In this document: positions 47,996-58,020 of the stretch, piece by piece
Position numbering within the stretch: position 1 is the first letter of the stretch
How the letters are laid out: the number at the start of each line of letters is the position of its first letter
Source of the DNA: Mogibacterium sp.
Lineage (GTDB): Bacteria; Bacillota; Clostridia; Peptostreptococcales; Anaerovoracaceae
Reading direction: 5' to 3'
NCBI GenBank assembly: GCA_017512365.1
Contig: JAFWGQ010000014.1
Span: 62,001 to 126,000 of the forward strand
Length of the DNA stretch: 64,000 nt
Program-made: the position numbers and the translations under genes
Notes under the pieces: model-generated
Seen by the model: only the letters and a program-made list of their open reading frames with translations
The model's database searches: none
Told to the model about the DNA's origin: nothing

Positions 47996-48019
47996 TGAGC
48001 GACATTCTTTTAATAATCC

Positions 48020-48048
48020 TTGAAAGAATCGGTACCCGTTGTTAATAT
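48020..48048 (+). promoter_or_regulatory. promoter of the gap-pgk-tpiA operon
   Basis: TTGAAA, 17-bp spacer, TAATAT. An inverted repeat ATTCTTT / AAAGAAT (48004-48010 with 48023-48029) overlaps the -35 and could be an operator. Confidence 0.6.
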
Positions 48049-48112
48049 TATTATGTATGTAATAGTCACCATCTGAAGCACTGTTTCATAATGAATAATC
48101 AGGAGGAGAGAA

Positions 48113-49162
48113 ATGATCAAGGTTGGCATCAATGGTTGGGGACGAATCGCCACGTGCGTAATGAGAGCTATCAGACAGTTCGACGACATGGAGGTCGTCG
48201 GCATCAACTGGCGTAACGCGGATACGGATTATGTAGCCTATATGCTCAAATACGATTCCGCATTCGGAAGATTCCCTGAAGAAGTCAAGGCTTATGACAA
48301 GGGCATCATCGTAGGCGGCAGGAAGATCCCGGTATACTTCGAGTCGGATCCTGAGAACATCCCGTGGAGCGAATGCGGAGCAGAGTACGTCATCGACTGT
48401 ACAGGCACGCTCACGACTACCGAGAAATCAGCGCCGCACCTCAAAGCAGGCGCAAAGAAGGTCATCATTTCCGCTCCTGCAAAGGACAAGACGACACCTA
48501 CCTTTGTGTACGGCGTAAACCACGACTGGTACAAGAGAAACATGAATGTCGTATCGACAGCATCCTGCACCACCAACTGCCTCGCGCCTATCTGCAAGGT
48601 CATCAATGACAAGTGGGGCATCTATGAGGGTCTCCTGACGACGATACACGCGACCACGGGCAAACAGAAGACAAATGACGGCCGTACAAAGTACAACTGG
48701 AGGATGGGACGCTCGGTGTTCAACAACATCATCCCGACCACGACAGGCGCGGCAAAGGCTGTAGCGCTGGTCATCCCTGAACTCGAAGGAGCGATCACGG
48801 GAATGGCCTTCCGTATCCCTGCTGTCGATGTTTCCGCTGTCGACCTCGACGTAGTGCTCAGAAGCGCAACTTCATATGAAGAGATCAACAAGGCCATGAA
48901 GGAGGCCTCGGAGACTTATCTGAAGGATGTTCTCCTTTACACTGAAGAGGAAGTTACATCGATCGACTTCATCGGATGCCCGGCTCCGTCTGTCTACGAC
49001 GCCAAGATGGGCATCGAGGTCAACGACAAGTTCTTCAAGATCGTAGGCTACTATGACAACGAATACGGTTATACGTCCAACATGCTCAGGATGGTAAGGC
49101 ACATGTACAGGACTGACATCGATACATTCCCTATCGTTGAAGACGACAGCAAAAAGAAATAG
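48113..49162 (+). CDS. gap: glyceraldehyde-3-phosphate dehydrogenase
   Basis: 349 aa. Oxidises GAP to 1,3-bisphosphoglycerate. Seen: KVGINGWGRIATCVMRA, the catalytic Cys in STASCTTNCLAP, TIHATTGKQKTNDG, RMGRSVFNNIIPTTTGAAKA and YDNEYGYTSNMLRM. At the end of the second beta strand the usual NAD-selective Asp (IND...) is replaced: VGINWRNADTDYVAYMLKYD. Loss of that Asp often goes with NADP use, so cofactor preference is uncertain. AGGAGG precedes the ATG. Confidence 0.94.
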   Translation: MIKVGINGWGRIATCVMRAIRQFDDMEVVGINWRNADTDYVAYMLKYDSAFGRFPEEVKAYDKGIIVGGRKIPVYFESDPENIPWSECGAEYVIDCTGTLTTTEKSAPHLKAGAKKVIISAPAKDKTTPTFVYGVNHDWYKRNMNVVSTASCTTNCLAPICKVINDKWGIYEGLLTTIHATTGKQKTNDGRTKYNWRMGRSVFNNIIPTTTGAAKAVALVIPELEGAITGMAFRIPAVDVSAVDLDVVLRSATSYEEINKAMKEASETYLKDVLLYTEEEVTSIDFIGCPAPSVYDAKMGIEVNDKFFKIVGYYDNEYGYTSNMLRMVRHMYRTDIDTFPIVEDDSKKK

Positions 49163-49176
49163 CATAGATACATAAG

Positions 49177-49203
49177 CTGTGCCGTGCGTCATGTACGGCA
49201 CAG
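49177..49203 (+). promoter_or_regulatory. intercistronic hairpin gap-pgk
   Basis: Perfect 9-bp stem CTGTGCCGT / ACGGCACAG with a 9-nt loop, then AATCTTTAAAGGAG. Without a T run it is more likely a processing or stabilising element that sets the gap:pgk ratio than a terminator. Confidence 0.55.
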
Positions 49204-49225
49204 AATCTTTAAAGGAGACCATGAA

Positions 49226-50410
49226 ATGAAAAAAACCGTAAAAGACATCAACTGGGCCGGAAAGACGGCTGTCACAAGATGCGACTTCAACGTGCCTCTT
49301 GACGGAGACAGGATCACCGACGATACCCGCATCAGGGCCGCGCTTCCGACCATAAAGTATCTGATGGAGAACGGTGCGGCGACAGTGCTCATGTCGCACC
49401 TCGGAAGACCTAAGGGCAAGCCTGTTCCGGAGATGAGCCTCGCTCCTGTGGCGAAGAGACTCAGCGAGCTGCTCGGAAAGGACGTCATCTTCGTTCCTTC
49501 CGATGCGGTCGTGGATGACAAGGTCAGAGCGGCGGCAAAAGTTCTCAAAGCCGGAGAGGTCATGCTCATCGAGAACGTGAGATACAGAGAAGAGGAAGAA
49601 AAGAACGATCCGGGATTTGCGAAGGATCTCGCGGGCCTGGGCGATGTATTCGTGCAGGATGCTTTCGGAACAGCTCACAGAGCCCACGCTTCGACGACAG
49701 GCATCGCGGACTACATCCCTGCGGTATCGGGCTTCCTTATCGAAAAGGAGCTCAGGTTCCTCGGAGAGGCTGTCAACGATCCGAAGAGACCGTTCGCCGC
49801 GATCATGGGCGGAGCCAAGGTGAAAGACAAGATCCCTGTGATCACGAACCTGCTCGACAAGGTCGACATCCTCCTTATCGGAGGCGGAATGGCATATACC
49901 TTCTTCAAAGCGCAGGGCTATTCCATCGGCACATCGCTTCTTGACGAGGAGGGCCTTGAACTCGCGGGAGACATACTCAGGAAAGCGGAGGAGAAGGGCG
50001 TGAAGTTCATGCTTCCTGTCGATGTGGTCGCAGCGGATGAGTTCGCGAACGATTCTCCATGCGGCGTATATCCTGTGGATTCGATCCCGGACAACAGGAT
50101 GGGCCTCGACATCGGGCCTGAGACTATAAAGCTCTACTGCGATACTCTCGCGACAACGAAGACCGTCATATGGAACGGACCGATGGGAGTCTTCGAGATG
50201 GACAACTTCGCAAAGGGTACGAAAGCTATCGCCGAATGTCTGGCTGAGATCGATGCAACGACAGTCATCGGCGGCGGCGACAGCGCGGCGGCTGTTGCGA
50301 AATTCGGTCTCGGGGACAGGATGACGCACATAAGCACAGGCGGCGGAGCCAGCCTTGAATTCCTCGAGGGAAGGGAGCTGCCGGGGATCGCTATCATAGA
50401 AGACAAGTAG
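49226..50410 (+). CDS. pgk: phosphoglycerate kinase
   Basis: 394 aa. Transfers phosphate from 1,3-bisphosphoglycerate to ADP. Seen: [79 protein letters not shown] and [21 protein letters not shown] 10 nt before the ATG at 49226 decides the start over the longer frame. Confidence 0.97.
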
Positions 50411-50423
50411 GAAAGGGTAAAAC

Positions 50424-51182
50424 ATGAAAAAAATACTTATCGCAGGCAACTGGAAAATGAACAAGCTCAGCGCTGATGCTGAGGAATTCATAAAGGAACT
50501 GAGAGCAAAGAATCTCCCGAATGAGAAGGACATATGCATACTCGCGCCGTTCACTCTTATCGCGGGAGTTGGAGAGGCTCTGGAAGGCTCTGAGATCGGC
50601 TTCGGGGCCCAGAACGTTCATTTCGAAGAAAGCGGGGCATTCACGGGAGAAATATCCGTGCCGATGCTGAAGGAACTCGGCGTCACTCACTGCATAGTGG
50701 GCCACTCAGAGAGAAGGGAATACTTCAACGAGACAGACGATACCGTAAACCGCAAGCTCATGGCACTTCTCGCTGCGGGCATCACCCCGATACTCTGTGT
50801 AGGCGAGTCTCTTGAGGTCAGAGAGGGAGGCGGCGAGCAGACATTCGTCGCGGGCCAGCTCATTGCTGATTTCAGCGGCATTTCCGCATCTGATGCTGCA
50901 AAGATCGTCATCGCATACGAGCCTATCTGGGCTATAGGCACAGGCAGGACGGCTACGCCTGAGCAGGCCGAGGAGATGTGCGCGTTCATAAGAGGAGTGC
51001 TCTCCGGCATCTATGACATGGCGACCGGCGACAGCCTCATGATCCTCTACGGCGGAAGCATGAAACCGGGCAACGCTAAAGAACTGCTCGAAAAGCCTGA
51101 TATCAACGGCGGGCTGATCGGAGGAGCAAGCCTGAAGGCGGACGACTTCGCTGCGATCGCGGAAGCTGCGGCATCGCTGTGA
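50424..51182 (+). CDS. tpiA: triosephosphate isomerase
   Basis: 252 aa TIM barrel. Seen: [17 protein letters not shown], catalytic His in [13 protein letters not shown], catalytic Glu in [20 protein letters not shown] and phosphate loop [20 protein letters not shown] precedes the ATG, 13 nt after pgk. The gap-pgk-tpiA cluster lacks gpmI and eno, which often follow. Confidence 0.97.
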
Positions 51183-51187
51183 TCCGT

Positions 51188-51216
51188 TTGACATAAAATA
51201 GTATAAGTGTTATATT
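51188..51216 (+). promoter_or_regulatory. strong promoter of the secG transcript
   Basis: TTGACA, 17-bp spacer, TATATT: the best match to a vegetative promoter seen in the window. Confidence 0.8.
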
Positions 51217-51264
51217 TAAGCGTTCGATTTTCTGCACGCCGCGTGCCGTCTGTCGGACGCTTAA
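51216..51264 (+). promoter_or_regulatory. long hairpin in the secG leader
   Basis: TTAAGCGTTCG / CGGACGCTTAA (51216-51226 with 51254-51264), 11 bp with one GU, enclosing CACG-CCG-CGTG. It starts at the -10 box and has no T run. It may be an mRNA 5'-end structure or, as DNA, a cruciform or operator. Confidence 0.5.
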
Positions 51265-51295
51265 TAACGGTATTTTCAATTGATCGGAGGACAAA

Positions 51296-51529
51296 ATGCA
51301 TACTGCATTAATGATCATTCTGCTGATCTCCAGCATAGTGCTCATCATCAGCATCCTGCTTCAGGAGAGTAAGAGCGACGGACTTTCGGGTTCGATAGCC
51401 GGAGGAGCGGAGCAGTTGTTCGGCAAGCGCAAGAGCAAGGGCTATGACGCTCTGCTTTCAAGAGTCACGACCGTCTGTGCCGTGATCTACATTATCGTGT
51501 CGCTTGCAATTGTAGCTATTTTCAACTGA
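51296..51529 (+). CDS. secG: preprotein translocase subunit SecG
   Basis: 77 aa with two membrane helices (LMIILLISSIVLIISILLQ and AVIYIIVSLAIVAIF) separated by the conserved SKSDGLSGSIAGGAEQLFG. Part of the SecYEG channel. CGGAGG lies 6 nt before the ATG. Followed after one base by the pyrophosphatase-like gene. Confidence 0.95.
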   Translation: MHTALMIILLISSIVLIISILLQESKSDGLSGSIAGGAEQLFGKRKSKGYDALLSRVTTVCAVIYIIVSLAIVAIFN

Positions 51530-51530
51530 T

Positions 51531-53333
51531 ATGCTCGATAAGATATTGACTCTCGCGTGCGCATTGTTCGGACTGCTCACAGCCATCTCGCTTGAAGCAT
51601 GGCTGAGAAGCCGCATATCGAAGAATGCAAGTACTACCAGAACTTACAAAGCCGTACGCAACAGGAATTCCGAGTACTGGTCGAACCAGTACCTTCCGCT
51701 CATCGTAATGCTGGCGGTGGTGGCTGCAGCCATCGGATTTGCTGTTTCGCCATGGAATGCCGCGGTCTTTTTCGGAGGCGCGGTGCTTTGTTTTGTTTCG
51801 GTGATACTCGGATCGAGAACGGTGATAAGCGGAAGCATATCTTCCTCTTCACTGGCTGTTTCCGGAGATGTGAGGGGAGCTCTCAGGACCGCTTACAGAT
51901 CGGCGGCCGTGATGGGGCTTTTCGTTTCTTCGTTCGCGCTGATAGCGCTGGGCTTCCTGTTCTACTTCCTTGATACGGAAAAAATGGTGAGCCTGATAGC
52001 GAGCTTCGGCCTGGGCGCGTCGATAACTTCTCTGTGCCTTAATCTTTCGGGCACAGCGTTTTCGGGTGCTTACGCGCTTTCTGTAAAGAGCGATGACTTT
52101 ACCGATTACACGGGAATGTTCATAGGAAGCGGCGCGGACTTCGTTGAGACATATATACTCTCGGCATGCGCCGCCGCGCTGCTCGCCGGCATCGGCGTGG
52201 ATGCATCCGGCGTGACTTCGACATTCACCATCGCGTCTGCCGCGAAGTATCCGCTTATCGTTCTGGCAGCGGGCATCGTCGCAAGCATCACAGGCATACT
52301 CGCGTACAGAGGCAGGATAGTTAAGAACCCTGCTTCGGGAGTCACCCTCGGAAACTATATCTGCGCTGTCATAGTCATCGCTGCGGCTCTGTATTTCAGC
52401 AGGAGGCTGCTGCAGTCGTACGTATACGGGTTCTGCGTTGCTGCCGGCATCGTTGCCGCTGTCGCATGCGGAGAGATATCCAAGCTGTATTCATATGACG
52501 GCTTCATGTTCAGAAAGCATGTGCCTGACGCCAGGACCGTCGGCGCAAGCCAGTCCATGATATACAGTCTGTCGATCGGCATGATGTCTGTCGTCATTCC
52601 CGCTGTCATAACGACGGCCGCTATGACAGTGGCTTTCAAGTTCGCCAATTTCTACGGTATCGCTCTTGCGTCGATCGGCATCAATTCGATGGCGGGGATC
52701 AATTCCGCGGTAAGAGGATTTTCCATCAATACCGCAAGCTCTTCGGAAATAGCTTCGGTCATCCTGGAAAGCGATGAGAGCCCGAATCCTGCAGACGTTC
52801 TTCTTACAGCATCGGTAAGGACCGATGTCATCGGAAAGACATATTCCGCCGTTGCCACTATCATCACTCTCACGGCGATGTTCACCGCGCTGTCGGTCAC
52901 AGCGGAAAGTCCTGCTGCCGACCTTCTGAGTACGCCGGTATTCCTCGGCATCACAACAGGAGCTGTTTTCGTCTTCGTATGCGCCGGTCTCATAATAAGA
53001 TCGATAAGGATGACAGCAACGGTACTGAGAGAAAGACTTGACGACATGTATAGCGATGAGAAGCACATAAATACGCTCAGAGGACTTGTTCCTCTGTACG
53101 TGGCGTCTCTCCTCGTACCGGCTCTTGCCGGCCTTCTGGGCGGAATAAACAGCCTTATAGCGTTCACATGTTCCGTCACCGTTACGGGAATGTGCATGCT
53201 TTTCGCATTCAATTATTCCGGAAAGTACTTTGACAGGATGGCCACGGAGACCCTCGGAAATGTCATCAAGGTCATGGTGGTCGCAGCGATCGTTTTTGCT
53301 CCTGTCTTTATGAAGTTCGGAGGAGTGCTTTAA
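51531..53333 (+). CDS. membrane pyrophosphatase-like protein lacking catalytic residues
   Basis: 600 aa, about 14-16 predicted helices. The order and spacing of segments follow ion-pumping membrane pyrophosphatases (usually about 660-700 aa), but the pyrophosphate site is gone. Where the family has GGGIFTKAADVGADL, this has SGTAFSGAYALSVKSDD (173-189). The DNVGDNVGD loop is shortened to DYTGMFIGSGADFVETY (192-208). VDAYGPIADNAGGIAEM becomes VRGFSINTASSSEIASV (394-410). The acidic C-terminal loop (VGDTVGDPFKDT) is deleted, leaving ETLGNVIKVMVVAAIVFAP (573-591). It has no ribosome binding site of its own and is probably coupled to secG. A dead-enzyme role, perhaps a regulator or Sec-linked membrane factor, is inferred only. 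Confidence 0.82.
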   Translation: MLDKILTLACALFGLLTAISLEAWLRSRISKNASTTRTYKAVRNRNSEYWSNQYLPLIVMLAVVAAAIGFAVSPWNAAVFFGGAVLCFVSVILGSRTVISGSISSSSLAVSGDVRGALRTAYRSAAVMGLFVSSFALIALGFLFYFLDTEKMVSLIASFGLGASITSLCLNLSGTAFSGAYALSVKSDDFTDYTGMFIGSGADFVETYILSACAAALLAGIGVDASGVTSTFTIASAAKYPLIVLAAGIVASITGILAYRGRIVKNPASGVTLGNYICAVIVIAAALYFSRRLLQSYVYGFCVAAGIVAAVACGEISKLYSYDGFMFRKHVPDARTVGASQSMIYSLSIGMMSVVIPAVITTAAMTVAFKFANFYGIALASIGINSMAGINSAVRGFSINTASSSEIASVILESDESPNPADVLLTASVRTDVIGKTYSAVATIITLTAMFTALSVTAESPAADLLSTPVFLGITTGAVFVFVCAGLIIRSIRMTATVLRERLDDMYSDEKHINTLRGLVPLYVASLLVPALAGLLGGINSLIAFTCSVTVTGMCMLFAFNYSGKYFDRMATETLGNVIKVMVVAAIVFAPVFMKFGGVL

Positions 53334-53370
53334 TCTGTAATCTGCAGAGTATATCCGGCAGAAAAAAGAT

Positions 53371-53406
53371 CGCGGTGGCTCTGCAAACGGAGACGCCGCG
53401 TTTTTT
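53371..53406 (+). terminator. terminator after the pyrophosphatase-like gene
   Basis: Stem from CGCGG / CCGCG extended inward to CTC / GAG with one mismatch, then six T. It lies only 15 bp before butyrate kinase 2. Confidence 0.85.
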
Positions 53407-53420
53407 AACATCTTAGACTT

Positions 53421-54545
53421 ATGAGAAACGGAAAATACAGGATATTCGTAATTAATCCGGGATCGACATCCACCAAGCTTGCGATGTTCAGCAATGACGA
53501 AAAAGTCTTCGAGACATCGGTGACGCATGACGCGTCCGTGCTGAATTCGTTCGGAGACGTGAACGATCAGTTCGGCTACAGGATGAAGGTCATAGAAGAT
53601 TTCATAAAGGACAATGACATAGATCTCGACGGCGTCGATGCTTTTGTCGGGAGAGGCGGCGGATGCTATCCGGTGCCGTCGGGAACCTTCGAGGTCAACG
53701 AAAGGCTTCTGAACGATATCAGAAACAACGTCGGAAGGACCATACATCCGTCGATACTCGGAGTGCAGCTCGCCCGCGAGATGCAGCAAAGATACGGAGG
53801 CAGACTCTTCATGGTCGATCCGATATGCGTCGATGAGTACACGGACGTCGCGAGAGTTACCGGAGTAAAGGAAATAGAAAGAAGGACTGAGTCGCACGCG
53901 CTGAATCTCAGAGGCACCGCGATGAAGCACTGCAAGATCCACGGCATGGATCACAAAGATGCGTGCCTCGTGGTGGCGCACATAGACGGAGGTATCACCA
54001 TTGCCGCACACGACCACGGCATGCAGGTAGACTGCAATCAGGGCGCGGGCGGCGAGGGACCGTTTACCGCAACAAGGACCGGATCGCTGCCGCTGATGGA
54101 GGTGCTCGACTACTTCCGCGATCATACGGTAGAGGAGATGAGACATCTCTGTACCGGCACCGGAGGCTTCGTATCCCACTTCGGCACTTCGGATGCTGAT
54201 GAGATATACGGCAGGGTGCTTGCCGGAGATAAGAACGCCGCACTGATATGGGAGGCTCTCGGATACAACATCGTGAAGTACATCGGCTCGATGGCGACGG
54301 TGCTGAAGGGCAGGGTCGACGGCATACTGATCACGGGCAGATATACGAGATTCGGCTCGCTGATAGATTACATCAGGGAATATACGGAGTGGATAGCTCC
54401 GGTATACGTATATGAGAATGAAGTTGAACAGGAAGCCATGTGCGCGGGAGCTCTCAGAGTGCTCAGAGGCGAAGAGGAGCCAAGGGTATATACCGGTGCG
54501 GACATGGTAAAGAGAGAGGTACAGGAGGGTAAAAATGCTGGATAA
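53421..54545 (+). CDS. buk: butyrate kinase, copy 2
   Basis: 374 aa, same family and length as the copy at 4359. Seen: VINPGSTSTKLAMF, VGRGGGCYPVPSGTFEVNE, VDPICVDEYTDVARVTG, SHALNLRGTAM, AHIDGGITIAAHDHGM, GPFTATRTGSLP, GGFVSHFGTSDADE and WIAPVYVYENEVEQEAMCAG. It is closer to well-known butyrate kinases than copy 1. No ribosome binding site is visible before ATG 53421, which directly follows a terminator. The end overlaps pheS by 11 nt, so pheST translation is tied to this gene. Confidence 0.9.
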   Translation: MRNGKYRIFVINPGSTSTKLAMFSNDEKVFETSVTHDASVLNSFGDVNDQFGYRMKVIEDFIKDNDIDLDGVDAFVGRGGGCYPVPSGTFEVNERLLNDIRNNVGRTIHPSILGVQLAREMQQRYGGRLFMVDPICVDEYTDVARVTGVKEIERRTESHALNLRGTAMKHCKIHGMDHKDACLVVAHIDGGITIAAHDHGMQVDCNQGAGGEGPFTATRTGSLPLMEVLDYFRDHTVEEMRHLCTGTGGFVSHFGTSDADEIYGRVLAGDKNAALIWEALGYNIVKYIGSMATVLKGRVDGILITGRYTRFGSLIDYIREYTEWIAPVYVYENEVEQEAMCAGALRVLRGEEEPRVYTGADMVKREVQEGKNAG

Positions 54546-55572
54546 GCTGGAGAAGATTCGCGAAGAAGGATTTCAGCGCATCGCCGAAGCAGCTGATATG
54601 GACAGCCTCGAGGCTGTGCGCAGGGAGCTGACCGGTAAAAAGAGCGCGCTGCAGGAAGTCCTCAAGAGCCTCGGCGGTATCGATCCCGAAATGAGGAAGT
54701 CCGTCGGAATGAAGGCCAACGAGGTAAAGAATTCCTTCGCAGAGAAACTGCAGGAAAAGGCCGATGAACTGATCGCGGGCGCTTCCGCGGTCGAAGGCGA
54801 CATAGATCTGACGCTGCCCGGCACAAAAGCCGGTGCAGGAGTGCTGCATCCGATCACGCAGATGTGCTACGACCTGAACGATGCGTTCAGATCGCTGGGA
54901 TTCGAGATATATAACGAAGACGACATAAGCAGCGAGAGGTTCGCTTTCGATAATCTGAACTTTGCTGCCGACCACCCGGCCAGAGCGTCCATGGACACAT
55001 ACTGGCTCAAGGGTACGGAAAATAAAAGAGGCAGCGAAAGACTGTGCCTCAGGCCGCATCTTACCGGCGGCTCCGTAAGGTATCTCCTCGAGCACGGCGC
55101 TCCTGCCAGGTTCGTGTATCCGGGAAGGGTATACAGGAACGAAACGACAGATGCCCGCCATGAGAGAGCCTTTTTCCAGTACGAGGCGCTGATAGTCGAC
55201 AGGGACATCTCCTTCAGCTCCGGACGCGTGATGATCGAGACCATACTCGAGAAGGTGTTCGGCCGCAAGGTCAACGTAAGGATGAGGGAAGGCTTTTTCC
55301 CGTTCACCGAACCGGGCTACGAGATCGACATGGAATGCCTGCTCTGCGGAGGCAAGGGCTGCAAGGCATGCAACCAGGCAGGCTGGATCGAAGTCATGCC
55401 GGGAGGAGTCATCCATCCGAACGTGCTCAGGGCGGCGAAGCTCGATCCGGACGTATGGACCGGTTTCTATACGAATATCGGACTCGACAGGCTGGTAATG
55501 ATGCGCTACGGAGTCGATGATGTAAGGCTGTTCCACAGTGCGGATCTGAGATTCCTCGAGCAGTTCAGGTAG
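54535..55572 (+). CDS. pheS: phenylalanyl-tRNA synthetase alpha subunit
   Basis: 345 aa class II catalytic subunit. N-terminal coiled coil (KLEKIREEGFQRIAEA), then GTKAGAGVLHPITQM, DNLNFAADHPARASMDTYWL, LRPHLTGGSVRYLLEH, FVYPGRVYRNETTDARHE, FPFTEPGYEIDMECLLCGGK and GLDRLVMMRYGVDDVR (motif 3). GGAGGG lies 5 nt before the ATG, inside the kinase gene. Confidence 0.97.
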   Translation: MLDKLEKIREEGFQRIAEAADMDSLEAVRRELTGKKSALQEVLKSLGGIDPEMRKSVGMKANEVKNSFAEKLQEKADELIAGASAVEGDIDLTLPGTKAGAGVLHPITQMCYDLNDAFRSLGFEIYNEDDISSERFAFDNLNFAADHPARASMDTYWLKGTENKRGSERLCLRPHLTGGSVRYLLEHGAPARFVYPGRVYRNETTDARHERAFFQYEALIVDRDISFSSGRVMIETILEKVFGRKVNVRMREGFFPFTEPGYEIDMECLLCGGKGCKACNQAGWIEVMPGGVIHPNVLRAAKLDPDVWTGFYTNIGLDRLVMMRYGVDDVRLFHSADLRFLEQFR

Positions 55573-55587
55573 GAAGGGAGGCACCAT

Positions 55588-58020
55588 ATGAATATTTCAC
55601 TGAAATTCTTACAGAGATATGTCGATCTGCCTGCTGATCTTACTTACGAGCAGATCGCATATGATCTCACCATGAGGACCGTGGAGGTCGAGGAAGTCAT
55701 AAAGACTGCCGACAAGTTCCATGACATAGTTGTCGGAGAGATAAAGGAAGTAAAGGCTCATCCGAACGCAGACGCTCTGAAGATCTGCATCACGGATGTC
55801 GGAGAGGGCGAACTCAGACAGATCGTCTGCGGAGGATCGAATCTGGTCGAGGGGCATAAAGTCTGCGTCTCAAAGCCGGGCGCCGAGGTCGTATGGCACG
55901 GAGAGGGCGAGCCTGTGCTGATAAAGGAAAGCAAGCTGAGAGGCGAGCCGTCGTACGGAATGATATGCTCGCCGCTCGAGGTGTACCTCGGAGATCTTAT
56001 CTCCAATGAGGACGAAAGATGGATCGTGGATTTCACCGAGCTCGGCATCGACTGCGAGACCGGTCAGTCCGTGGCGGAGGTCATGGGTCTCGATGATGTC
56101 ATCCTCGAGGTAGACAACAAGTCGCTCTCGAACAGACCTGATCTCTGGGGACACTACGGGATCGCCAGAGAACTTGCTGCTATCTACAAGGTCCCGTTCA
56201 AAGAACTCAGCAGAGAGCTTCCCGAAGGCCTTCCGGAGTATCCGGTCACGATCAGAGAGCCTGAAAGATGCAACAGATTCACTGCTACAAAGATCGATAA
56301 CGTCTGCGTAAAGGAATCGCCTGCATGGATGAAGAATCTCATAATAAACGCCGGAATGAGGCCTATCAACGCCATAGTCGACATCACCAACTTCGTCATG
56401 CTCGCTGTCGGAGCTCCTCAGCACGCTTATGACAGCACTCACGTCGAAGGCGGTGAGATAGTCGTAAGGCTTGCCGAAGAGGGCGAAAAGCTTCTGCTTC
56501 TCGATGAAAAGGATCTGGAGCTCACGCACGATCATCTCGTGGTCTGCGACGCAAAGAAGCCTCTGAATCTCGCAGGTATAAAGGGCGGCAGAGACGACTC
56601 CGTTCTTGACAGCACGAATTCCATCATACTGGAATGCGCGGTATTCACCGCGCCGGGTATCAGACGCACGACCGCATACTTCAACGAGAAGACCGATGCT
56701 GCGCTCAGATACGAGAAAGGCATAGATACGCAGAGAGCAGATCTCGGCGTTTCGATGGCTCTTTCGCTGTTCAGGGAGATATATCCGGAATGTGTCATTT
56801 CGGCATTCGCTGACAATTATCCTGTCAGAACGGAAAACTCCGAGATAGATATCTCGCAGGAATTCCTCGACAGGAGGCTCGGAGAGGTCCTGACTCAGAG
56901 CACGATCGAAGACATCCTCAGGAGGCTCGGATACATCGTTATCTTCCAGCAGGGAGTGTACCGCTGCATAGCGCCTACCTGGAGATCTACAGGCGATGTT
57001 TCCATTCGTGATGACGTTCTGGGCGATATTGCCAGACTTATCGGCTACGAGTATTTCACGAAGCAGCCGCTCCCTGTGAAATTCGACCACTGCGTCAATC
57101 AGGTCAGGATGGATCTTGCCAGAAGGCTCAGGGAATACCTCGCTTTCAGATGCGGGATGAACGAGATTTTTACTTATCCGTGGATAGATGAAAAGTACAT
57201 CCGCGCCGCAAAGATCGACACATCGGAATCGATCATGCTTGCGACGCCGCCTGCGCCTGAGCTGGGCATACTCAGAAGCTCGCTCATACCGGGCATGCTC
57301 GAATCGATCGAAAAGAACCACAGATACTACGACGAGTTCGCGATGTTCGAGGCCGCTCAGGTGTTCGTAAAAGGCGAGTACAGCCCGTCGGATCCTGATG
57401 AGGTGCTGCCTGTGCACAGGAACCTCCTTACAGGCGTGTTCGCCGGCAGGGACGCCAAGGCGCTTTTCTTCAATGTAAAAGGCGCTGTCGAAAACATGAA
57501 CGGATACTGCCACTTCGAGCCTCTGACTTTCGCTCAGGTCGAGAAGCCTTGCTGGGCTGACGAAAAGGTATGGCTCAATGTCATGAGCGGGAAAGATGAA
57601 GAAGAAGTGATCGTCGGATCGATCGGTCTCCTCGCGGTATCGGCTCTGGCTGATTCGGGCATAAAGCTCATAAGCGCGGCAGCCTTCGAACTCGATGTCG
57701 ATAAGATCACTCCGTATCCGTCGAGGACCAACGAATTCAAGCATCTGCCGCTTTATCCGCTGGTAGAGCAGGATCTTTCGATACTGGTAGACGAGTCCGT
57801 CAAGTGGAGCCAGATCGAAGAGGCGATCGGAAAGATGGTCAAAGAGCTCAGCTTCGTCGAGGAATACAGGGGCAAACAGATCCCTGCAGGGATGAAGTCG
57901 ATCATGCTCAGCTACAGGATCGGAAATGATGATTCGACCATGAACTCGAAGCAGATAGAAAAGAAGATGAACGCGATAGTCGGAGTGCTCAGGAAGAAGG
58001 TGGGAGCCGAACTCCGCTGA
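55588..58020 (+). CDS. pheT: phenylalanyl-tRNA synthetase beta subunit
   Basis: 810 aa. Seen: ISLKFLQRYVDLPADLT, the tRNA-binding OB domain (VVGEIKEVKAHPNADALKI, SYGMICSPLE), B3/B4 editing region (SNRPDLWGHYGIARELAAIY, GMRPINAIVDITNFVML), B5 and a C-terminal ferredoxin-like anticodon domain (KHLPLYPLVEQDLSILVDE). Forms the alpha2beta2 enzyme with PheS. Confidence 0.97.
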   Translation: MNISLKFLQRYVDLPADLTYEQIAYDLTMRTVEVEEVIKTADKFHDIVVGEIKEVKAHPNADALKICITDVGEGELRQIVCGGSNLVEGHKVCVSKPGAEVVWHGEGEPVLIKESKLRGEPSYGMICSPLEVYLGDLISNEDERWIVDFTELGIDCETGQSVAEVMGLDDVILEVDNKSLSNRPDLWGHYGIARELAAIYKVPFKELSRELPEGLPEYPVTIREPERCNRFTATKIDNVCVKESPAWMKNLIINAGMRPINAIVDITNFVMLAVGAPQHAYDSTHVEGGEIVVRLAEEGEKLLLLDEKDLELTHDHLVVCDAKKPLNLAGIKGGRDDSVLDSTNSIILECAVFTAPGIRRTTAYFNEKTDAALRYEKGIDTQRADLGVSMALSLFREIYPECVISAFADNYPVRTENSEIDISQEFLDRRLGEVLTQSTIEDILRRLGYIVIFQQGVYRCIAPTWRSTGDVSIRDDVLGDIARLIGYEYFTKQPLPVKFDHCVNQVRMDLARRLREYLAFRCGMNEIFTYPWIDEKYIRAAKIDTSESIMLATPPAPELGILRSSLIPGMLESIEKNHRYYDEFAMFEAAQVFVKGEYSPSDPDEVLPVHRNLLTGVFAGRDAKALFFNVKGAVENMNGYCHFEPLTFAQVEKPCWADEKVWLNVMSGKDEEEVIVGSIGLLAVSALADSGIKLISAAAFELDVDKITPYPSRTNEFKHLPLYPLVEQDLSILVDESVKWSQIEEAIGKMVKELSFVEEYRGKQIPAGMKSIMLSYRIGNDDSTMNSKQIEKKMNAIVGVLRKKVGAELR

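Follow-up and report, generated by a model that had tools for sequence, protein, structure and literature searches.

A secG-linked membrane pyrophosphatase homologue in a Mogibacterium-like genus appears to have lost its hydrolytic site and kept much of its ion gate

Background

Membrane pyrophosphatases (mPPases) are primary ion pumps that occur as homodimers and possess 16 transmembrane helices. There are also membrane pseudoenzymes, such as the inactive rhomboids, in which the catalytic residues have been lost and both the fold and the selection acting on it have been retained.

The aspartates D6.43 and D16.39 of mPPases hold the nucleophilic water (PMC10897367), K5.58 and K16.38 are phosphate ligands, and the active-site cavity is covered by loops 5-6 and 13-14, with directional pumping requiring closure by loop 5-6 (PMC5150537). 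The H+/Na+ binding site is given as E6.53/57, D6.50, S6.54 and D/N16.46, and K16.50 and S5.43 are discussed in gating and selectivity (PMC10897367); the gate residues are also treated in PMC5150537, and several coupling mechanisms are still proposed (PMC5150537, PMC9408878). Among the matches listed for the open-licence literature in PubMed Central, no title or abstract opening described a degenerate mPPase family or an mPPase pseudoenzyme.

Identity of the gene and its position

We analysed a stretch of DNA of 64,000 nucleotides, referred to below as the window, together with related genomes. The gene under study, which we call mPP*, lies in the window among the following neighbours:

50424..51182, forward strand: tpiA, the conserved upstream neighbour, with gapA and pgk further upstream (open reading frame, named by sequence recognition)
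51296..51529, forward strand: secG, a preprotein translocase subunit of 77 aa (PF03840, E 2.2e-21; TIGR00810, E 6.8e-21)
51531..53333, forward strand: mPP*, a degenerate membrane pyrophosphatase homologue with an ATG start and an unbroken open reading frame of 600 aa
53421..54545, forward strand: a butyrate kinase-like gene, buk, followed by pheS and pheT, all frequent downstream neighbours (named by sequence recognition)

The start codon of mPP* is 1 nt past the stop codon of secG in the window. The downstream neighbours are conserved in most loci, and buk was not found at the loci of genomes G442 and G425.

The original prediction had described an intact frame of 600 codons whose segment order and structural residues follow those of the mPPases. 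Both points held: the frame was confirmed at its full length, all of the quoted motifs are found in the translation, and a profile search with PF03030 (H_PPase) returned mPP* with 147.7 bits (E 7e-43) against a curated cut-off of 29.7. PF03030 also matched all 19 members of set A3. In a profile-profile comparison with nine canonical mPPases of the same bacterial family, mPP* aligned over 593 columns with 31% identity (E 2.2e-53, probability 100), and a sequence profile search matched it, at the sequence level, to solved mPPases in the PDB. Eleven NCBIfam models matched mPP*, and the equivalog cut-off was reached for none of them, the best score being 167.3 bits against a required 546. A simple hydropathy analysis gave 15 segments in mPP* and 14 in one canonical relative.

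By profile and full-length alignment, mPP* belongs to the same family as the K+-dependent Na+-translocating mPPase of the T. maritima type (E at 6.53, A at 12.46), with which it also shares D6.50, E6.53, S/T6.54, K16.50 and S5.43. Unlike that enzyme, mPP* is without the PPi site and has lost most of the Mg ligands, and its loops 5-6, 13-14 and 15-16 are shortened or deleted. In the phylogenetic tree, mPP* nests with the canonical, secG-linked copies that its own genus contains. The nearest canonical sequences in the trees are the HppA proteins of two sister species (G082 and G412), whose genes occupy the same tpiA-secG-hppA position; unlike mPP*, they have the canonical residue at 16 of 16 hydrolytic positions. 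The canonical same-genus protein has 671 aa, compared with the 600 aa of mPP*.

Loss of the hydrolytic site

The numbering of VrPPase was carried over through the canonical HppA of G082, and columns were taken from alignments of 81-87 sequences. Hydrolytic positions other than D6.43, D16.39, K5.58 and K16.38 are those that we take to be hydrolytic from the VrPPase structure. Three segments of mPP* are affected most directly:

52065..52091, forward strand: junction left by the deleted loop 5-6 (residues 179-187), with K5.58, D253, D257, K261 and E268 lost
52092..52118, forward strand: remnant of the DNVGDNVGD motif, now DDFTDYTGM, with D188 and D192 kept and D6.43 changed to M196
53235..53255, forward strand: junction left by the deleted loop 15-16, with K694, D723, D727, K16.38 and D16.39 lost

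As mapped to VrPPase, K5.58 is replaced by G179, D253 by A182, D6.43 by M196, D507 by A402 and N534 by V429, and D257, K261, E268, K694, D723, D727, K16.38 and D16.39 are deleted. The Lys and Asp residues that hold Mg-pyrophosphate had been predicted to be replaced at every motif. This stood for both nucleophile aspartates and both PPi-gripping lysines, all of which are lost, and did not stand for 3 of the 16 hydrolytic positions, where the canonical residue persists (D279 as D188, D283 as D192 and D691 as D568). The predicted deletion of two acidic loops was borne out, as loops 5-6 and 15-16 are both gone in the profile alignment; loop 13-14 is shortened, and the large gaps of this alignment coincide with these three loops of the pump. 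Judged from the aligned Asp/Asn/Lys set and loop 5-6, mPP* lacks most of the residues, and the closing loop, by which a functional H+/Na+-pumping mPPase (EC 7.1.3.1) would hold Mg-PPi and the nucleophilic water.

Retention and selection within the genus

A degenerate copy was found at this locus in 41 of the 47 genomes of the window's Mogibacterium-like genus, and the matched stretches of these 41 copies contain no internal stops. As for the other genomes of the genus, G082 and G412 carry a canonical copy behind secG, G436 has a canonical copy with a masked stretch near pheS, G438 has an mPP2-type copy only, and no mPPase match was obtained in G429 (92% complete) or G434 (59% complete). Contig ends cut the degenerate copies of G433, G443 and G447. 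A scan of named genomes returned 19 loci; for 18, identity is 63-86% and the title is Mogibacterium sp. or (uncultured) Clostridiales bacterium. Several are from goat, sheep or horse gut, and many are the same contigs as those of the genus set. The possibility that mPP* is a strain-specific oddity or a contaminant (the assembly shows 6.9% contamination) was rejected because 41 of the 47 genomes carry the degenerate copy.

The dN/dS ratio of the degenerate gene (Nei-Gojobori method) was computable for 17 of 19 pairs, several of which had saturated dS, and ranged from 0.040 to 0.188. These values are similar to those of secG and above those of pheS; the second mPPase, described below, gave 0.026-0.066 in three pairs. 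The mPP* protein evolves faster than its neighbours: identity to mPP* across the genus falls from 86% down to 33%, compared with about 64-98% for neighbour genes, and the copies of G425, G428, G328 and G400 are closer to a canonical mPPase (28-37%). Across 36 copies, conservation reaches 90% or more at 41 columns that carry the canonical majority residue and at 25 columns that carry another residue.

The fast divergence would be expected if mPP* were in slow decay or of marginal function, with selection relaxed after another pyrophosphatase took over PPi removal and the open frames being remnants. A DHHA2 domain, found in family-II soluble pyrophosphatases, is encoded in 42 of the 47 genus genomes and in all five genomes with degenerate copies in a second genus of the family (that of G093), compared with 6 of the 12 others of that second genus, so mPPase hydrolysis looks dispensable; family-I pyrophosphatase was found in 0 of the 47 genus genomes. 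Decay would also suit the copy of G439, which is frameshifted near its start (or misassembled), and that of G400, which is short (503 aa). However, the low dN/dS ratios, the absence of internal stops from the 41 copies and the two sets of conserved columns all speak against decay, to which we assign a very slim chance.

The original prediction of a retained membrane pseudoenzyme instead of a decaying gene therefore agrees with the presence of the copy in 41 of 47 genomes, its open frames, its dN/dS ratios and its fixed place behind secG, and the conservation of both the gene and its secG-linked position shows that it is not unique to one strain. Like the inactive rhomboids, mPP* appears to have kept selection despite the loss of catalytic residues, and we consider it very probable, from the sequence comparisons, that it is a retained non-hydrolysing mPPase homologue.

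Two kinds of unusual copy were noted in the genus. In L112 (G439:C155), the first residues are in a different frame from the rest, through a frameshift or an assembly error. L120 (G400:C16:103158-104648) is shorter (503 aa), and L119 (G328) is less degenerate; these copies may represent further stages in the genus.

A second mPPase and the question of an active partner

The genome of the window (G000) was expected to be worth searching for a second, intact hppA, and one is present, split over two contigs. This canonical mPPase falls in a different subfamily from the secG-linked one in the mPPase tree, and shares 91-96% identity with the mPP2-type copies taken from other genomes of the genus (66% for G328). 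Its locus, L001 (G000:C61:1-3313), holds an intact mPPase gene that runs off C61, and C55 probably begins with its C-terminus; the adjoining gene looks, by eye, like a DHH-type phosphoesterase.

A canonical mPPase or pieces of one were found elsewhere in 36 of the 41 genus genomes with a degenerate copy, and outside the genus G048 and G025 hold both a degenerate and a canonical mPPase. In a homodimeric enzyme such as an mPPase, an inactive subunit could tune the active one, and mPP* might thus regulate the intact second mPPase or join it as the other half of a heterodimer. Against this, no canonical mPPase was found in five of the 41 genomes, namely G320 (96% complete), G376 (93%), G407 (82%), G430 (71%) and G447 (74%), nor in any of the five genomes with degenerate copies in the second genus (86-99% complete) or in G118 (90%), where incomplete assemblies could hide some canonical copies. 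Since the degenerate copy is kept in genomes without a detected canonical one, an active partner does not seem to be required; as a general role, pairing with an intact mPPase was rejected, and we regard the tuning of a second mPPase as very unlikely.

The second mPPase, otherwise canonical, appears to be interrupted in G404:C88 (an internal TGA) and in G395:C203 (two frames), either by assembly error or by real loss.

Partial retention of the ion gate

The following codons of mPP* correspond to gate residues:

52020..52022, forward strand: S164, the Ser5.43 codon, the ion-selectivity serine, retained (by alignment; role according to PMC10897367)
52137..52151, forward strand: ion-gate segment D203-F-V-E206-T207, corresponding to D6.50, E6.53 and S/T6.54 (by alignment)
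53268..53270, forward strand: K580, the Lys16.50 codon, the gate lysine, retained (by alignment)

The gate D6.50, E6.53/57, S6.54, D/N16.46 and K16.50 reads D, E, T, G and K in mPP*, with three residues identical, one conservative and one lost; the last is N16.46, now G576. Among 36 degenerate sequences of the genus, Asp is found at 6.50 in 34 (Glu in the other 2), Lys at 16.50 in 32, Glu at 6.53 in 29, Ser or Thr at 6.54 in 32, and Ser at 5.43 in 83%. Two positions are mostly lost in these sequences: N16.46 (N in 2 of 36) and R5.50 (R in 6 of 36).

To compare the two sets of positions, mean identities were calculated. For the 36 genus sequences, mean identity was 0.56 at the gate and 0.15 at the hydrolytic positions (rank test p 0.0015), and for 6 further sequences it was 0.81 at 7 gate positions and 0.24 at 16 hydrolytic positions (p 0.00014), in rank tests that count related sequences as separate. 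The 6 further sequences are those of G328, G400, G093, G025, G048 and G118, the first two of which belong to the window's genus. Gate identity also exceeded that of other canonical-invariant polar columns (p 0.008 in the genus and p 0.0003 in the 6 further sequences), a set built on 35 rows of one bacterial family from which the secG-linked copy of G071 (three altered sites), G041, G000-C61 and the truncated copy of G025 were left out. The mPPase tree and the retention counts leave out the contig-end pieces of G433, G443 and G447, the copy of G436 (masked stretch read as X), a partial second copy of G413 and an interrupted copy of G404; G439 is included in the retention counts although its first residues sit in another frame.

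In the second genus, D6.43, K16.38 and D16.39 are absent from all 5 copies and K5.58 is still K in 2 of them. At the gate, all 5 copies have Lys at 16.50 and Ser at 6.54, and 4 of the 5 have Asn at 16.46. As aligned, 4 of the 5 also have Asp at 6.50; G286 was counted as a gap there, and by eye has an Asp in this segment. E6.53 is Asp in 3 of the 5 and Glu in none.

As aligned, the gate residues S5.43, D6.50 and K16.50, and E6.53 in most of the genus, are thus shown to be kept more often than the hydrolytic ones. The role in membrane energetics that had been suggested for this gene, or a role with ions, gains support from this difference. Gate retention could also reflect folding alone, through buried charges or a buried salt bridge.

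Because the hydrolytic centre is gone and most of the gate is kept, we infer that binding or conduction of H+ or Na+ without PPi is the most likely function of the protein. The proposed course of events is as follows: an ancestral secG-linked mPPase would have lost the nucleophile Asp, the PPi-gripping Lys and the lid loops in place, and most of the membrane-embedded H+/Na+ gate would have been kept; the resulting protein, made together with SecG, would bind or conduct H+ or Na+ without PPi, as a gate-only channel, a carrier or an ion-responsive membrane subunit. We give not quite an even chance to the reading that a secG-linked mPPase ceased to hydrolyse PPi while staying at its locus and was then kept as a membrane protein that works without PPi in an ion-related role, and an ion-conducting or ion-responsive mechanism for mPP* is a proposal that we make tentatively. 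The pattern suggests that a pump may have been re-used for a new membrane job.

In another explanation, the emptied cytoplasmic pocket would recognise a different ligand, and mPP* would be a neofunctionalised transporter or binder. The former active-site stretches (residues about 185-208, 394-409 and 418-436) are strongly conserved in the window's clade, as such a function would predict. However, few of those columns are kept outside this clade, and a sequence by itself allows no inference about a ligand; we therefore consider a new ligand unlikely, with a small but appreciable probability. Whatever role the protein has, natural mPPases without the hydrolytic centre and with much of the gate would be ready-made objects in which the gate could be tested alone.

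Linkage to secG and transcription signals

In 39 of the 41 degenerate loci of the genus, secG lies upstream; contig ends truncate the other two, those of G443 and G447. Counted up to the first Met, the gap behind secG measures 1-45 nt in 37 of the 38 degenerate genus loci examined and 75 nt in G328, compared with 18-147 nt in canonical loci (n=36). For the copy of G406, no ATG was found near the start and the candidates are TTG codons only. This close arrangement would be in line with mPP* acting as a structural or regulatory partner that binds or stabilises SecYEG from the SecG side, in which the buried charges only hold the fold. However, secG is also upstream in 28 of 28 of the best-scoring canonical loci of the bacterial family, which were not a random draw, so the linkage seems to have been inherited from before the degeneration and is weak evidence for a Sec role; in addition, the spacing is not shortened in four other degenerate loci (G048, 81 nt; G351, 94 nt; G025, 101 nt; G118, 106 nt). 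We consider such a SecYEG-binding role improbable, and rate the Sec translocon as a partner of mPP* in general as equally so.

Linkage to secG as a sign of Sec function, which the original prediction had raised, was accordingly downgraded in view of the 28 canonical loci. These observations raise the question of why hppA and secG are neighbours so frequently in this bacterial family; secG was not detected at the canonical copies of G063 and G075, which lie beside glycolytic genes.

Two transcription signals flank the gene pair:

51188..51216, forward strand: sigma-70-like promoter TTGACA-N17-TATATT with TG before the second hexamer, upstream of secG (11 of 12 positions)
53371..53406, forward strand: intrinsic terminator behind mPP*, with a stem-loop at 53371-53400 and six T (-19.1 kcal/mol, z -3.63)

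A promoter scan found 3 promoter-like sites against a mean of 2.1 in shuffled sequences. Upstream of secG, sites with at least 10 of 12 matches occur in 32 of 38 degenerate loci of the genus, in 10 of the 36 canonical ones and in 2 of the 5 other degenerate ones. Behind the gene, a hairpin that reaches -10 kcal/mol and precedes a T-run is present in 31 of 38, 32 of 36 and 0 of 5 loci of these groups, respectively; the terminator behind hppA is therefore common to canonical loci too. The terminator at 53371-53406 was not listed by a pattern scan. From these signals a joint secG-mPP* transcript is likely in the genus, consensus matches being no proof of one.

The stem of the terminator behind the degenerate gene shares its sequence across many species, as GGTGGCTCTG or GGCGGCTCTG, and this sharing exceeds what a plain terminator seems to need. 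A search for RNA elements in positions 48000-56000 of the window gave none at the gathering threshold.

Distribution and number of losses

In a survey of the bacterial family, an mPPase match was found in 124 of 148 genomes. Besides those of the window's genus, low-scoring long copies were found in G048 and G118 (one genus), in G025 and in G093. In G048, G118 and G025, several C-terminal hydrolytic residues are retained (D723, D727). Within the second genus, 5 of 17 genomes (G093, G286, G351, G392 and G406) have a degenerate copy. In the lineages of G048/G118, G025 and G093, secG is upstream wherever the contig reaches, the locus of G392 being cut.

A phylogenetic tree of the neighbour-encoded proteins PGK and TpiA was built from the 56 loci at which pgk and tpiA are both present, of which 44 are degenerate and 12 canonical; G286, G392 and 27 short canonical loci (L007-L016 and L018-L034) are absent from it. 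This tree requires four changes of state; well-supported branches make at least three of them unavoidable, and a single change suffices in 0% of 200 bootstrap trees. In the mPPase tree, G093 groups with the window's genus with a support of 83, on long branches that warn of long-branch attraction, and only two changes are forced. The mPPase tree would thus lend itself to a single origin, in which one ancient loss was followed by later re-acquisition of a canonical copy, and this scenario is disfavoured by the neighbour-gene tree. Since a locus whose catalytic centre has been deleted could regain it only by re-acquisition, we read the four state changes as losses, and the hydrolytic centre was probably lost three or four separate times in this one bacterial family.

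If true, a primary ion pump would have given rise to a lineage of pseudoenzymes more than once. The stronger proposal, that mPPases several times separately became PPi-independent, gate-only Na+/H+ channels or carriers, located at secG wherever the contig reaches, with an ion flow perhaps tied to the Sec translocon or to membrane energisation, appears doubtful to us on the present comparisons.

In a class-wide sample of 137 genomes, 88 of which have an mPPase, mPP* was the sole long degenerate copy that a score under 200 bits revealed. The remaining matches below this score in the sample are pieces or fragments that were left unopened, as were copies of about 590-640 bits. Since G048 and G118, whose copies are less strongly degenerate, score in the latter range, milder cases outside the bacterial family may exist.

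Several other mPPase sequences were noted during these searches. At G574:C1:1947621-1947866, a 424-aa open frame covers no more of the mPPase profile than its final 82 positions. Five genomes of the bacterial family encode mPPases of 811-857 aa (stop-to-stop frames) with a Lys at the K+-independence position (L046, L047, L057, L058 and L059), which lie far from the other mPPases in the tree. Finally, L049 (G071, C1:1782739-1784679) is a full-length secG-linked mPPase with the changes D500 to A, K541 to E and D691 to N, in a genome whose second copy is intact, and it is possibly an early stage of the same loss.
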